This document shows positions 5,390 through 33,165 of a stretch of DNA of 64,000 bases, in pieces (the stretch's first letter is position 1; each line of letters opens with the position of its first letter). Position numbers and translations under genes: made by a program. The notes under the pieces were generated by a model. The model ran no database searches, was not told where the DNA came from, and saw only the letters and a list, made by a program, of their open reading frames with translations. Source of the DNA: Acetobacter conturbans (GTDB taxonomy: Bacteria > Pseudomonadota > Alphaproteobacteria > Acetobacterales > Acetobacteraceae); contig NZ_WOSY01000008.1 of NCBI RefSeq assembly GCF_011516755.1, positions 124,001-188,000 of the forward strand, given 5' to 3'.

Positions 5390-7594
5390 ATGCTTGATCG
5401 ACCGCTGGATTGCTCATTCGAGCAGCCGAGAGCCGTTCCTCCCGTATCGGGTTTAGGGCTGTATGCACAGTCGTCGCGGTATTTCGGCATCGGATGGCGA
5501 TATCGTTATCTGTTTTGCGTGGTTGCTGTGTGCATCCTTGCAATCGGAAGCGCTGTTGTTCTGTCTCTCAAAACATCATTCATGGCAGCTGCAACCGTCG
5601 TGGTGACGGCCCCTGTGAGTGACCCGCTTCAGCCCCCATCGCAGACAAGCCGCACCCTTGAAGATGATGAGCTGCCAACGCAGGCGGCTCTTATCGCGTC
5701 ACGGGATGTCGCTGCTCTTGTTTTAAAGGAGCTGCCCCCCGTCCCGCCTAAAAAAGCTCATGACTGGCGGCATGCTCTCTGCTCGCATGGCTTCAAGTTC
5801 GGGTGCAACACCGGCACCGAAACGACGAGTAACAGCGCGGGTGAGATCGACAGGCAGATCGATGGACTGCTTGCGAGTGTGACCGTTGAGCCCTTGCCGA
5901 ACTCCCGGGTGATCTCGGTAAGCGTTAAAGCGGATAATGGAGAAAGAGCGGCCGCGCTGGCAAATTCATTTGTCACGAACTATCAAAAACTGGCCTTGAC
6001 CCAGCAGCGTATCGATTTGCAGCGCGAAGCTGAATGGCTCGATAGTCGTACGGCGGAGCTTCGGCAGCGCTGGCTTGAAGCAGAACGCGGCGCCAGCGCC
6101 TATAATGTGAAGCACGGACTGGTTAATACCAGCGGCGGTTCCCCCCTCGTCGAACATCAGATTTCTGATATGGCCGCAAGTCTGGGAGAGGCTCAGACAC
6201 GCTATGCTGCTGCTCAGGCTCAGGTCAGTGCCTTGAAAAGCGCGATGCAGACCGGAGATCCGCAGACCATGCTGTCGCTGGGGCAGCAGCCACTTGTTAC
6301 GGCAGCAGCGACCGAGTTGATGCAGGCGGAAACCAGTCGCGCTCAGAAGGCAGGATCGTTCGGCCCCAAGCATCCGGACGTTCTGGCTTTGGATCAGCAG
6401 ATTGCGCTTGCCAGAACGAACCTTTCTGTCGCCATACGTCGGGCCCTGATGTCGATCAATGGTGAACTTGTCGCGGCCAAGGCGAATGTCGATCAGCTGA
6501 ATGCTGATCTTGATCGGCTGCAGGTTCAGGCGGGTAAGCAGAGCGGCCCGCAGGCCGAATATCGTACGCTCGATCAGGAATCGCAAAGCGCCCGGAGTGT
6601 GTATGAGGCATTTCTTGATCGGGCCAAGCAGCTGACCGATCGGGTTGCTCTTCTGCAGCCACCCGTCATGTTTGTCTCTCACGCTGCCGTTCCGGCCTCA
6701 GCCACTTTCCCGAACCGCCAGAAATTGATGATCGGTGTTTTCGTGGTGGCGCTGGTGGGAGGTGTTTCGGCCATTGTGCTGAGGGCCGCTTTCTCTTCGG
6801 GTTTTGTTGATATTGATGAGGTACGGGGATTTTGCGGTCTTCCGTTGCTCGGAATTTTCCCGCGGCTGAGAGGAGAGAGGAAGCTTTCGCCGTCCTCTCT
6901 TGTTCGCGAACATCCTTTCGCACTGACCTCGGAAGCGGCCCGGGAACTTGGTGCGCAATTGACGCTGGCCAGCAACTATCGTTCCGGTGAGACGCGGATT
7001 GTCGCCATCACGTCTGCATTGCCGGAAGATGGCAAGATGACGCTTGCTGCCTGGCTGGCTTCTTCAGCCATTGAAGCGGGCGAAACGACACTGGTGATCG
7101 ATGCGGATTTTGGCCGGAATGCAGGCAATCCCAAAAACCGCCACGGCAATACCAAAGGCTTTTCCGATGTTCTGGAGGGAGAGGTCGCGGCGCGGAATGT
7201 GATTGTGAGAAATGACAGTTGGGGGGGCGATTTCATGACCGCCGGGACCCCACGTGGTTATATGTTCGATCGCACTGAAATCTCGCAAATTCAGGATCTT
7301 TTCCGTGACCTGTCCCGCTCTTACCAGTTGATCGTCGTGGTCGCGCCTCCCTTGGGAGTGGTCGCTGGTGGTTTGACATTGGCTGCCATCGCCGATCAGA
7401 CGATTTTTGTCTGCCGGTGGGGACGCACGTCTCGCGAAGTGGTAAGCGCGTGTGTAGAACGGCTTCGGTTGTATGGTGCCCGGCTTGCGGGATTTGTTGT
7501 GACCGGTACGGAGCCCAAGTCATTCAACTTGCTATGTGGGGCCCACCTCACTCGTAAGGAATCGCGGTTGATCGCGCAGCGGCGCCAGGCCTGA
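5390..7594 (+). CDS. gumC: GumC/Wzc-like polysaccharide co-polymerase with degenerate kinase-like domain
   Basis: Controls chain length and export of the polysaccharide in the inner membrane. The 734-residue protein has a cytoplasmic N-terminus, a membrane segment at about 40-62 (YLFCVVAVCILAIGSAVVL), a Wzz domain, a long periplasmic coiled coil (about 205-410), a second membrane segment (LMIGVFVVALVGGVSAIVL) and a C-terminal P-loop kinase-like domain from about 535. The ATPase site looks decayed. Walker A is LPEDGKMT (Lys549 kept, but Glu replaces the usual Gly and Met the Thr/Ser next to Lys). The Walker A-prime IDAD (Asp571) is intact, while the Walker B position reads IVVVAPPLG without Asp. 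There is no C-terminal tyrosine cluster. It therefore resembles GumC-type proteins rather than an active tyrosine autokinase. Confidence 0.85.
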   Translation: MLDRPLDCSFEQPRAVPPVSGLGLYAQSSRYFGIGWRYRYLFCVVAVCILAIGSAVVLSLKTSFMAAATVVVTAPVSDPLQPPSQTSRTLEDDELPTQAALIASRDVAALVLKELPPVPPKKAHDWRHALCSHGFKFGCNTGTETTSNSAGEIDRQIDGLLASVTVEPLPNSRVISVSVKADNGERAAALANSFVTNYQKLALTQQRIDLQREAEWLDSRTAELRQRWLEAERGASAYNVKHGLVNTSGGSPLVEHQISDMAASLGEAQTRYAAAQAQVSALKSAMQTGDPQTMLSLGQQPLVTAAATELMQAETSRAQKAGSFGPKHPDVLALDQQIALARTNLSVAIRRALMSINGELVAAKANVDQLNADLDRLQVQAGKQSGPQAEYRTLDQESQSARSVYEAFLDRAKQLTDRVALLQPPVMFVSHAAVPASATFPNRQKLMIGVFVVALVGGVSAIVLRAAFSSGFVDIDEVRGFCGLPLLGIFPRLRGERKLSPSSLVREHPFALTSEAARELGAQLTLASNYRSGETRIVAITSALPEDGKMTLAAWLASSAIEAGETTLVIDADFGRNAGNPKNRHGNTKGFSDVLEGEVAARNVIVRNDSWGGDFMTAGTPRGYMFDRTEISQIQDLFRDLSRSYQLIVVVAPPLGVVAGGLTLAAIADQTIFVCRWGRTSREVVSACVERLRLYGARLAGFVVTGTEPKSFNLLCGAHLTRKESRLIAQRRQA

Positions 7595-30670: not shown

Positions 30671-30844
30671 TCAGTTTGAGTCGGTGGCACGATCTACGGC
30701 GCGACCCATTTTTTCGCCCGGACCTTTTGGCGGATCAAAAGTATCCTGCACTTTTTCACCGAACGTTCTTTTGTGTGGGTGGCATGCTGTCAGGCCAGCG
30801 CAGGTGATGGAAAGCGCGAGTAATGCGACGCATGTTGAGCGCAT
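30671..30844 (-). CDS. 57-residue small lipoprotein
   Basis: GGAG lies eight bases before the ATG at 30844. The product has a signal (CVALLALSITCAGLTAC) with lipobox LTAC, and a short charged mature part ending EKMGRAVDRATDSN. Size and layout recall the entericidin-like small lipoproteins, but the sequence is not close enough to name it. The gene shares its terminator with the convergent membrane protein. Confidence 0.72.
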   Translation of the reverse strand: MRSTCVALLALSITCAGLTACHPHKRTFGEKVQDTFDPPKGPGEKMGRAVDRATDSN

Positions 30845-31087: not shown

Positions 31088-31165
31088 ATGCTATTTTTTA
31101 TTGTGGGATTCTGGATCGGTGGTTTCGTCGGTCTTTTTGCAACTCTTCTTTTTTATAAGCCGTAA
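31088..31165 (+). CDS. 25-residue hydrophobic micro-protein
   Basis: ATG to TAA encodes MLFFIVGFWIGGFVGLFATL plus five residues, essentially one membrane helix with a GxxxG-like face and a Lys-Pro end. It ends five bases before the glycosyltransferase gene. Only a weak AAGAAA precedes it. A similar hydrophobic micro-protein follows the glycosyltransferase, which makes a random origin less likely. Function unknown. Confidence 0.45.
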   Translation: MLFFIVGFWIGGFVGLFATLLFYKP

Positions 31166-31170
31166 TATTT

Positions 31171-32247
31171 ATGAAAAATCGTATTTTATTTATTCTCAAA
31201 GCAAGAGACGGCAACTGGGGTTACGGATCGAAGGAATCGGGTCTGTCCAACTCGGTTCGCTTTGTTGTGGATATGCTGAATGCCAATGGCATTGAAGCCA
31301 AGGCTGTCGAAGTCAGGGACAATAACTGCATTGATCGGGAAGTGGCGGCTTATTGCCCGACGCACGTTATTGTCGAGGCATTCTGGGTCGTGCCGGAAAA
31401 GTTCGATGTTCTGAAACCACTGCATCCGGATGTGCAGTGGATCGTGCGCGATCATTCAGAAACACCCTTTCTAGCGAATGAAGGAAACGCCTTTGGCTGG
31501 ACGGTCGATTATCTGAAACGCGGGATTGAAGTGATGTGCAATGCACCCCGCGCCGTATCGGATATGGCGGTAGTGGCGATGGGGTGTGGGCTTGATCCGT
31601 CCGGCGTCTCCTATGGACCGAATGTCTATCCCGTTCCGCGCCTGTGTGACATCACGCCCCATGAGAGACGCTCCGATGTCGTGAATATCGGGTGTTTCGG
31701 TGCAGTTCGTCCCCTGAAAAACCATATGACGCAGGCTGTTGCCGCCATGGCGTTTGCGGAATCCATCGGTGCGCAACTGCGATTCCACGTCAACGCGACA
31801 CGGGTCGAAGGGCAGGGAAGCCCGGTCCTGAAAAATCTCCGCGAACTGTTTGCACGCTCTGCGCACGAGCTTGTTGAGCATGGCTGGATGCCACATTCAG
31901 GATTTCTCGATGTCCTGGGCGGCATCGACATCCTCATGCAGGTATCCTTTACCGAGACGTTCAATATCGTTGCGGCCGATGCGATGGCCTCCAGCGTGCC
32001 CGTTCTGGTTTCGTCGGAAATCCCGTGGATTGGCCATTACGCACATCGGGACCCGACCGATGCGGCAGACATGGCTCAGGGGCTTTATGAAATCTGGAAC
32101 GAAGGATGGTGTGAGCAGCAAAAGCGCCTTTTGAAACAGCGCCGCGATATGGAAGTGTTTTGCGCGCGCTCGACCGCTACATGGCGGCGGCGATTTGGGT
32201 CTTTCTGGCAGATGAATAGCCAGTTCGTGTGCTTACAAGATGCCTGA
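31171..32247 (+). CDS. GT-B glycosyltransferase, phage-type
   Basis: A 358-residue cytoplasmic protein. The N-terminal half has a LFILKARDG start, THVIVEAFWVVPEKFDVL and WIVRDHSETPFLANEG. The C-terminal half is GT-B-like (IGCFGAVRPLKNHMTQAVAA; FTETFNIVAADAMASSVPV). From recall, the N-terminal half resembles glycosyltransferase-like proteins encoded by tailed phages and found in scattered bacterial loci; this cannot be verified here. The gene lies between two micro membrane proteins and is followed by a lipoprotein gene. No other phage gene is seen nearby. Acceptor and sugar are unknown. No strong Shine-Dalgarno precedes the ATG. Confidence 0.7.
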   Translation: MKNRILFILKARDGNWGYGSKESGLSNSVRFVVDMLNANGIEAKAVEVRDNNCIDREVAAYCPTHVIVEAFWVVPEKFDVLKPLHPDVQWIVRDHSETPFLANEGNAFGWTVDYLKRGIEVMCNAPRAVSDMAVVAMGCGLDPSGVSYGPNVYPVPRLCDITPHERRSDVVNIGCFGAVRPLKNHMTQAVAAMAFAESIGAQLRFHVNATRVEGQGSPVLKNLRELFARSAHELVEHGWMPHSGFLDVLGGIDILMQVSFTETFNIVAADAMASSVPVLVSSEIPWIGHYAHRDPTDAADMAQGLYEIWNEGWCEQQKRLLKQRRDMEVFCARSTATWRRRFGSFWQMNSQFVCLQDA

Positions 32248-32368
32248 CTGGCTTCTGTTCGGTGGCATCGGCGCGATCATTACTGCACTCACCAATGCTG
32301 TTCTGGTTTTCTTATTTGTTTGCATACGCAAAAATCAGGACAAAAAATTCTGGGAACAGGAAAAATGA
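32240..32368 (+). CDS. 42-residue membrane micro-protein
   Basis: Starts inside the last codons of the glycosyltransferase gene and ends in an ATGA overlap with the lipoprotein gene, so it is translationally coupled at both ends. It encodes one membrane helix (LLFGGIGAIITALTNAVLVF) followed by a charged tail (RKNQDKKFWEQEK). The tight packing supports a real gene. No family recognised. Confidence 0.6.
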   Translation: MPDWLLFGGIGAIITALTNAVLVFLFVCIRKNQDKKFWEQEK

Positions 32369-32748
32369 AGGAGATTTTCTGTCTCTGCCTGTTCGTGTTG
32401 ATGCTTGCGGGATGCAGCACTATCCCGGACCGGGCACGTCATGAAATGGTGGGTCTCACACGCCCCGACCTTGTCGCCTGTGCCGGAATTCCGGATCAGG
32501 AAGAAACGCGGGATGGGCAGGAGGTGCTGGTCTGGAAGATCGAAAAAACAGATGGCGGCAGTCTGTCGGTTTCGATGCCATTCGATATGTCGCTGACGTT
32601 CAGTTCCAGCGGATCTTGCCATGTAATCGCCAGCCTGCGCGGTAACAAGGTGATGCGGCTTGCATACACAGGTCCTGCCCGGACCTGGCTGGGTGCGGAC
32701 GCTGTCTGCGCTCCGGTTCTGCGAGCATGTGTCCAGAAGAAGGAATAA
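32365..32748 (+). CDS. lipoprotein with possible SmpA/BamE-like fold
   Basis: A 127-residue predicted lipoprotein with signal IFCLCLFVLMLAGC (lipobox LAGC). The mature part begins with a helix-turn pattern typical of SmpA/BamE-like small lipoproteins (MVGLTRPDLVACAGIPDQ, then a VLVWKIEK strand) and has paired cysteines that could form disulfides (Cys in VACAG, SCHV, AVCAPVLRAC). The fold suggestion is inference. It starts with ATGA overlapping the preceding micro-protein and ends the cassette. The in-frame ORF extends upstream to 32320 but only the internal ATG gives the signal peptide. Confidence 0.65.
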   Translation: MKEIFCLCLFVLMLAGCSTIPDRARHEMVGLTRPDLVACAGIPDQEETRDGQEVLVWKIEKTDGGSLSVSMPFDMSLTFSSSGSCHVIASLRGNKVMRLAYTGPARTWLGADAVCAPVLRACVQKKE

Positions 32749-33165
32749 GGACAGTTCCTGAAACATGTCCTGTGAATTGCAGAAACTCTGTTCTTTAGCA
32801 GCGGTTTTCTGAATGCCAGATCTGACGTGGGGAACGCCGGTTAAAGGAAAATCAGGCTCGCTTCCGTGCTGCGACACAAAAAAGCGAGCCTGATTCCCGA
32901 GTGCTATCAAGAACTGACGTGCAGAACGTAATATCTCTCAACGCAGGGTATGACTAGACATATTGACAAGAGTTTGATGATTTTGAGGCAAAAAAAGCTC
33001 AAAAAAGAGTGATTTGACACAAAGTGCCTTATTTTTGGCGGTTCCCGTCCTTGTGTGGAACGTTATTTTCTAAACGTTTTTTCTTGCAGCTGTCCGCAAG
33101 GGTTCGCGGTGAGTTTTTCTCCTCGCTCCCACGAAAACAGCCATTCCACTTGGCGCAGTTATCTG
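32749..33165. other. convergent intergenic region with a 14-bp inverted repeat
   Basis: Lies between the lipoprotein gene and the convergent MetF-like gene. AATCAGGCTCGCTT (32850-32863) pairs perfectly with AAGCGAGCCTGATT (32882-32895) around 18 bases, a likely transcription stop without a T-run. No credible gene is seen in the rest, which is AT-rich near 32930-33070. Confidence 0.5.

Follow-up and report, generated by a model that had tools for sequence, protein, structure and literature searches.

Why should an Acetobacter chromosome keep a glycosyltransferase (GT) of phage type together with two tiny membrane proteins and a lipoprotein? The question is raised by a stretch of 64,000 nucleotides (nt) from Acetobacter conturbans (contig NZ_WOSY01000008.1, positions 124,001 to 188,000 of the forward strand), referred to here as the window. 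Four genes in the window, with products measured in amino acids (aa), form a compact cassette:

31088..31165, + strand: 25-aa single-span membrane micro-protein, the first open reading frame (ORF) of the cassette
31171..32247, + strand: 358-aa GT of a phage-type family, with a predicted GT-B fold
32240..32368, + strand: 42-aa single-span membrane protein with a charged tail
32365..32748, + strand: 127-aa lipoprotein with the lipobox LAGC

The cassette is very probably derived from a phage and resident in the chromosome of one Acetobacter group. What it does there is less secure: that the host keeps it as a receptor-modifying cassette of the serotype-conversion type, a function read from genomic context, has about an even chance of being correct.

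The spacing within the window consists of a 5-nt gap between the 25-aa ORF and the GT gene, an 8-nt overlap between the GT gene and the 42-aa gene, and a 4-nt ATGA overlap between the 42-aa gene and the lipoprotein gene. Both overlaps are kept in other genomes (loci L013, L018, L021, L014, and L015, and genomes G231 and G237), and the 5-nt gap is kept wherever the 25-aa ORF is present; the lipoprotein start codon is GTG in some of the cassette-bearing genomes. The packing is real and beyond chance, and translational coupling within the cassette is likely, to judge from it. Ratios of nonsynonymous to synonymous substitution (dN/dS), estimated by the NG86 method, are 0.018-0.122 for the GT (15 pairs), 0.077-0.319 for the 42-aa protein (9 of 12 pairs, 3 being saturated), 0.063-0.367 for the lipoprotein (8 of 12 pairs, 4 being saturated), and 0.089-0.424 for the 25-aa protein (9 pairs), all of them rough values, as dS is mostly above 1 in the window pairs and several are saturated for the small genes. 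The closer GT pairs (dS 0.2-0.7) agree, at 0.018-0.114. Retention at such low ratios suggests that the host uses the product. A preliminary description of the locus had proposed this four-gene cassette with the same boundaries and overlaps, and the recurrence of the overlaps in other genomes and the low dN/dS bear it out.

Phage kinship of the glycosyltransferase and the lipoprotein

As far as homology searches reach, the GT family is nearly confined to phages in the collections searched. A single GT query against IMG/VR gave 125 pattern stretches, all of which encode relatives, and a GT profile gave 569, of which 520 do. The IMG/VR homologues align over nearly their full length at 41-52% identity, and 23 of the best 80 relatives lie on contigs over 100 kb; one 231,255-bp contig with a GT homologue is presumably Ralstonia phage RSL1. 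Among cellular genomes (drawn samples that overlap one another), the profile at E<=1e-30 matched 5 of 397 from the family. The samples of 385 from the class and 398 from the phylum gave a single match each, in both cases to the window's own genome. The single query at E<=0.001 matched 11 of 200 family genomes, 10 of which show no more than a partial likeness to GTs in general (E 7.8e-6 or worse). The genome_contigs collection yielded GT relatives in 4 of 17 pattern stretches, one in a prophage-like region of Gluconobacter. Three protein queries and one DNA query found no GT match in an annotated-phage collection; a control protein matched 70 records there, but accession AB366653 is absent from it, and the collection is therefore presumed to lack the relevant phages.

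In a tree of 58 GTs (rooted at the midpoint for drawing only), the 8 chromosomal copies and a prophage copy from the sister genome G201, which is 76% identical to the window GT, form one group (99/98). Prophage copies from Gluconobacter join this Acetobacter group (100/99), placed among viral sequences. Because branching inside the cassette group reaches 67/75, the tree fits a single chromosomal capture as well as several. The preliminary description had likened the GT to proteins of tailed phages in its N-terminal half; the phage character holds, and the likeness spans nearly the whole protein in the IMG/VR searches, the alignment, and the tree. A further GT relative (63%) occurs without the small genes in another Acetobacteraceae genus (G1032; L172 10245-11285), near a region that looks, by its signatures, like one with HNH and terminase genes. 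This copy suggests that the GT changes its place among phages.

The GT is predicted to adopt a GT-B fold. The AlphaFold2 model (53 sequences) has a mean predicted local distance difference test score (pLDDT) of 91.2, and its best Foldseek match is SenB (8jjn, E 1.3e-12), with MshA, PimA, and BshA also matched. R180, K183, E262, and D270 are invariant in the 53- and 58-sequence alignments and may be catalytic residues, as in GT4 enzymes; relative to the E-x7-E-like active-site motif of such enzymes, the second E is replaced by D (E-x7-D). Pfam matches are to Glycosyl transferases group 1, not family 2, and fall below the cut-off for all three models touched (Glyco_trans_1_4 at 21.6 bits against a gathering cut-off of 27). 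The GT profile had no match at E<=0.01 among solved structures. No transmembrane (TM) segment is apparent to the eye, so that the enzyme is probably soluble and a membrane substrate would need recruitment.

The lipoprotein is 48% identical to that of a prophage-like locus, L143 (E 1.7e-33), and belongs to a family with several paralogues, which at E<=0.001 has matches in 47 of the 49 Acetobacter genomes. In an alignment of 7 sequences, four Cys are invariant in addition to that of the lipobox. The structure model is poor (pLDDT 65.5, 4 sequences) and has no fold match at E<=0.001, and a scan of IMG/VR for the lipoprotein found no relative. Phage phiAO1 encodes a distant relative (27%, E 2e-7); its record, LC644971 (L254; 1294-3417 and about 7001-7408), also contains a catalase gene, and a published survey calls phiAO1 an incomplete prophage. 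At the level of sequence, phage kinship appears firm for both the GT and the lipoprotein. The earlier statement that no other phage gene is present was misleading, given this lipoprotein and the positional counterparts that the tiny genes have in prophages.

A variable slot in related prophages

The second GT copy of G201 lies in a prophage (L135/L024) with tape measure, baseplate hub, baseplate wedge, and tail-fibre genes. The order there is Tat-signal protein, micro-TM protein, GT, phrog_19005 protein, small TM protein, a degraded lipoprotein remnant, and tRNA-Glu, which is the layout of the chromosomal cassette with one extra gene (phrog_19005) after the GT. The unit lies behind a spike gene with a glycosidase-like domain. 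Gluconobacter locus L016 has the order Tat-signal protein, GT, one further gene, phrog_19005 protein, and small TM ORF, without a lipoprotein, and L025 reads like it. A '-DA/-NA/-HA stop' end common to the GT and the prophage phrog_19005 protein was rejected as evidence, since it follows of necessity from the 8-nt overlap with the MPD start. Seventeen other prophage proteins (none of them a lipoprotein) used as queries had no match in the window or the 8 cassette loci (E 0.01).

Fourteen lipoprotein loci outside the orthologous site (L135-L148) were sorted by reading. L136-L139 look like solo chromosomal lipoprotein genes, L142 and L148 are cut or broken, and L144-L146 read as prophages without a slot enzyme. 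The remaining five have one: the GT in L135, a protein of 307-312 aa ("type B") in three, and a 259-aa protein with a weak homing-endonuclease match in L143. The type B proteins have an invariant D-x-D, and each gene is preceded by a 26-28-aa membrane ORF:

L140, 6013-7019: type B slot protein
L147, 5253-6244: type B slot protein
L141, 5905-6917: type B slot protein

They have a relative in a hypothetical protein of the 349-kb jumbo Xanthomonas phage XaC1 (OR258281; 36%, E 4e-48), and a type B profile run against solved structures gave one meaningless match (E 0.34); type B may be a glycosyltransferase. Other putative glycan-modifying genes lie close by, in the region behind the spike: L143 also encodes an O-acyltransferase-type protein (Acyl_transf_3, E 4.8e-22), and L141 has a GT2/Core-2-branching fusion (E 3.3e-29 and 3e-23) just upstream on the other strand. 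The large spike-like proteins match Glyco_hydro_30 in L143 (E 6.3e-25), L147 (E 6.2e-16), and L135 (E 1.7e-5); those of L143 (76-3375) and L147 (47-3337) hint at a glycan bound by these phages. Comparison of the sister prophages (L135, L140, L141, and L143-L147) shows the slot enzyme to be absent or swapped, that is, an accessory (moron) trait.

All four Acetobacter prophage loci whose slot holds a GT or a type B protein (L135, L140, L141, and L147) have a micro-TM ORF, 26-32 residues long, that runs into the start of the slot-enzyme gene. In the cassette, the 25-aa and 42-aa proteins have one hydrophobic span each and no Pfam match above cut-off; the best 19-aa Kyte-Doolittle mean of the former is 2.18, and the latter has about 15 residues beyond its span. 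Of 20000 Markov shuffles of the upstream region, 74 gave an ORF that was hydrophobic, had 22 or more codons, and stopped no farther than about 15 nt from the GT start. What links the tiny proteins to those of the prophages is their position, their size, and their hydrophobicity.

Residence in the Acetobacter chromosome

The GT occurs in 8 of 49 Acetobacter genomes, G201 having two copies. All 8 encode the 42-aa protein (E 1.9e-5 or better; the search, run at a lax E<=10, matched 15 of the 49 genomes) with the lipoprotein gene adjoining it, and 6 have the 25-aa ORF (the window genome, G200, G201, G231, G233, and G237). The expectation that the small ORFs accompany homologous GTs is thus upheld within Acetobacter, and fails beside distant phage homologues, where the 25-aa type is absent.

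Three further features mark the surroundings of the cassette in the window:

30671..30844, - strand: 57-aa lipoprotein gene, a host neighbour flanking the cassette
32850..32895, + strand: possible terminator downstream of the cassette, a perfect 14-bp inverted repeat with an 18-nt loop
25790..25864, - strand: tRNA-Thr, about 5 kb upstream of the cassette, the site of a prophage scar in two sister genomes

The order UDP-glucose dehydrogenase, 58-aa protein, 57-aa lipoprotein, cassette is found in 6 of the 8 genomes. The 57-aa gene lies beside the cassette in all 8, and in A. estunensis it is the sole retained member of that flank; there (L014, L015, and L153) the cassette and the 57-aa gene are on a different contig from the dehydrogenase, as if moved together. 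G215 and G217 have the flanking genes and no cassette, so that the cassette is either an insertion or a relic retained in one group. The cassette is likewise absent behind the dehydrogenase gene in ten stretches (L155-L164; nine from genomes without the GT, and L162 from A. estunensis G205), one of which spans just 1946 bases. The dehydrogenase gene itself is present in 38 of the 49 genomes (E<=1e-100); being widespread, and elsewhere in A. estunensis, it was rejected as a functional partner. Plasmid origin of the cassette was also rejected, with no plasmid match at E 0.001, and an Rfam search gave no match.

Several smaller observations concern this setting. The possible terminator (window 32850-32895) and the region behind the lipoprotein in L014/L015 (A. 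estunensis) have the word TGCTGCGACAC in common, in a hairpin-like context with differing stems. The scar at tRNA-Thr contains a degraded prophage-type lipoprotein in G200 (L149 8764-9274) and remnants of a lipoprotein and a small TM protein in G237 (L151 16469-16759). Solo relatives of the 42-aa protein without a GT (about 40-57% over 30-40 residues) occur in G215 (L165 8213-8302) and G207 (L166 6372-6491), each behind a gene that we take to be lolA.

Function, rival explanations, and known systems

The cassette may be understood as an accessory module from temperate phages that infect acetic acid bacteria, probably of the contractile-tail type to judge from the baseplate genes; it would have stayed in the chromosome after the other phage genes had disappeared or had failed to follow. 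Acting at the inner membrane, the soluble GT-B enzyme would use an activated donor to add a sugar to a surface glycan or to its lipid-linked precursor. The 25-aa protein, made just before the GT, and the 42-aa protein, whose gene overlaps the GT stop, would keep the enzyme at the membrane, and the lipoprotein would be exported to act in the periplasm or at the outer membrane. An altered surface glycan could then escape recognition by phages with glycosidase spikes, a benefit for which the host would retain the genes. Sugar, acceptor, tethering, export site, and phage resistance are all drawn from context. A glycan-attacking spike with swappable enzymes of glycan-modifying type behind it is the arrangement expected of receptor-modifying conversion genes, and the recurrence of the micro-protein with unrelated slot enzymes in the same phage group points to a helper of general use, for example one that tethers enzymes to the membrane. 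A bolder form of the idea, which we consider tentative and on balance doubtful, is that such peptides are interchangeable tethers that turn soluble phage GTs into envelope-modifying enzymes, that Acetobacter phages have a pair of tether and soluble enzyme in the variable slot behind a glycosidase spike, and that the host keeps one such pair as a resident anti-phage system of surface modification. Envelope modification had also been the preliminary proposal; it is the best-supported function, from the context of the prophage slot only, and the earlier interpretation as a whole is partly supported.

A number of results weigh against a host-kept, receptor-modifying cassette with dedicated small partners. 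L140 and L141 have type B proteins that are 98% identical, so that the four prophage cases of a micro-TM ORF amount to about three independent ones, only one of them with a GT of the window type. No micro-TM ORF was found at the Gluconobacter prophage GT copies (2 of 2, L016 and L025), at the G1032 copy, or ahead of the gene for the 259-aa protein in L143. The two A. estunensis genomes lack the 25-aa ORF next to their GT genes, and 43 of 44 IMG/VR relatives examined have no micro-TM ORF, the remaining one being doubtful (a count that left out L045, L059, and L095); the enzyme therefore does not need one everywhere. The 25-aa protein matches the prophage micro-TM protein in BLAST at a non-significant E 0.039 over 12 aa, the 42-aa protein has no BLAST match to the prophage small TM protein at E 0.01, and a relative of the 42-aa protein occurs without the GT in G215 (E 1.4e-5). 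The L016 fibre has no glycosidase match, and searches of Pfam, PHROGs, and NCBIfam assign type B to no family. The 140 neighbour proteins of IMG/VR GTs include HNH endonucleases and unknowns, with no envelope theme, among 25 listed of 144 PHROG families; the one exception is a second GT-like neighbour, read in 5 of 48 IMG/VR loci. No sigma-70-like promoter site was matched on the + strand upstream of the cassette. Finally, neither glycosyltransferase (or glycosyl) nor lipoprotein appears in the main text of two Acetobacter phage surveys (PMC8566455 and PMC9379143).

The alternative that survives best, possible though rather unlikely, accepts the same phage origin and has the GT re-used for host polysaccharide or glycolipid synthesis with no anti-phage role, the small proteins being assembly helpers and the lipoprotein a general envelope protein. 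Low dN/dS across several species, the adjoining UDP-glucose dehydrogenase-like gene in most cassette genomes, and the breadth of the lipoprotein family all suit it; the dehydrogenase is nonetheless widespread, both A. estunensis genomes have it on a contig separate from the cassette, and the whole set mirrors the phage slot.

A further alternative appears improbable: that the 42-aa protein pairs with the lipoprotein for spanin-like lysis or for superinfection exclusion, with the GT adjacent by chance. Small hydrophobic ORFs do accompany the lipoprotein without a GT in L144-L146 (by reading), and the lipoprotein has weak matches to the Rz-like spanin phrog_812 (E 0.0069) and to Cor phrog_1119 (E 0.027), yet these values are not significant and the pair is kept jointly with the GT in all 8 genomes. 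A two-component spanin (Rz/Rz1) has an inner-membrane subunit with a long periplasmic domain, for which the 42-aa protein is too short, and a lysis cassette was rejected on this ground; the resemblance to Cor-type superinfection exclusion goes no further than the signal-peptide region (residues 1-22).

Somewhat poorer still are the prospects of virion decoration, in which the GT would modify the tail spike or capsid of its phages and the chromosomal copy would be a passenger or decoy factor. Its position behind tail-fibre or spike-like genes in prophages fits this, as does the frequency of the family on IMG/VR contigs over 100 kb, presumably of large lytic phages; a passenger without a target should, however, decay, which the dN/dS of the GT contradicts, and the structural-gene queries were all without a match at the site. 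T4-type DNA glucosyltransferases glycosylate modified DNA bases, and such a role for this GT, suggested by its phage family and a weak Pfam GT4-conflict match (E 3.4e-4, below cut-off), is highly improbable and was rejected: base-modification families are not among the 25 commonest of the 144 PHROG neighbour families or the neighbour clusters listed, ordinary GT4 enzymes match equally or better, and a reason for chromosomal retention is not evident.

With this cassette, a large and mostly uncharacterised phage GT family gains a tractable bacterial setting, four genes in culturable vinegar bacteria with natural species that have or lack the cassette. Because a micro-ORF directly precedes at least two unrelated slot enzymes, membrane proteins of 25-40 residues, which annotation easily skips, also gain a concrete, testable role. 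Serotype conversion is known mainly from the membrane-embedded gtr and oac enzymes of enterobacterial phages.

The cassette was not reported in the literature searched, including the accessible parts of PMC5722065, PMC2629481, PMC8566455, and PMC9379143, and resembles several known systems in part. PADLOC defence profiles matched neither the micro-protein, the GT, nor the lipoprotein, and gave one chance-like match for the 42-aa protein (E 0.0062). The GT4-type GT-B enzymes SenB, MshA, PimA, and BshA resemble the cassette GT in predicted fold (Foldseek E 1e-12 to 1e-9) and possibly in the conserved R/K and E-x7-D residues, at 14-16% identity in the ten best rows. The phage GTs of IMG/VR are homologous to it, but their neighbours are unrelated to those in the cassette. 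Phage phiAP1 (PMC8566455) has a hub 48% identical to that of the G201 prophage and integrates at a tRNA; its right end, by contrast, encodes another lipoprotein (by reading), and the annotated-phage collection gave no GT match. Another comparison is with the gtrABC clusters (PMC2629481), which are phage-borne, mobile between phage types, and tightly packed, like the cassette, and which modify glycans, as the cassette may do; most "bacterial" copies are said there to sit in intact to degraded prophages. Their own parts, on the same account, are the flippase GtrA, the bactoprenol glucosyltransferase GtrB (GT2), and GtrC with 9-11 spans, whereas the cassette combines a GT-B enzyme, probably soluble, with a lipoprotein and two micro-proteins of one span each. 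No relatives of GtrA, GtrB, or GtrC were found, and membership of the gtr type, as earlier suggested, was rejected. The gtrABC clusters may serve the end proposed here for the cassette with different components, and they too persist as remnants of prophages.

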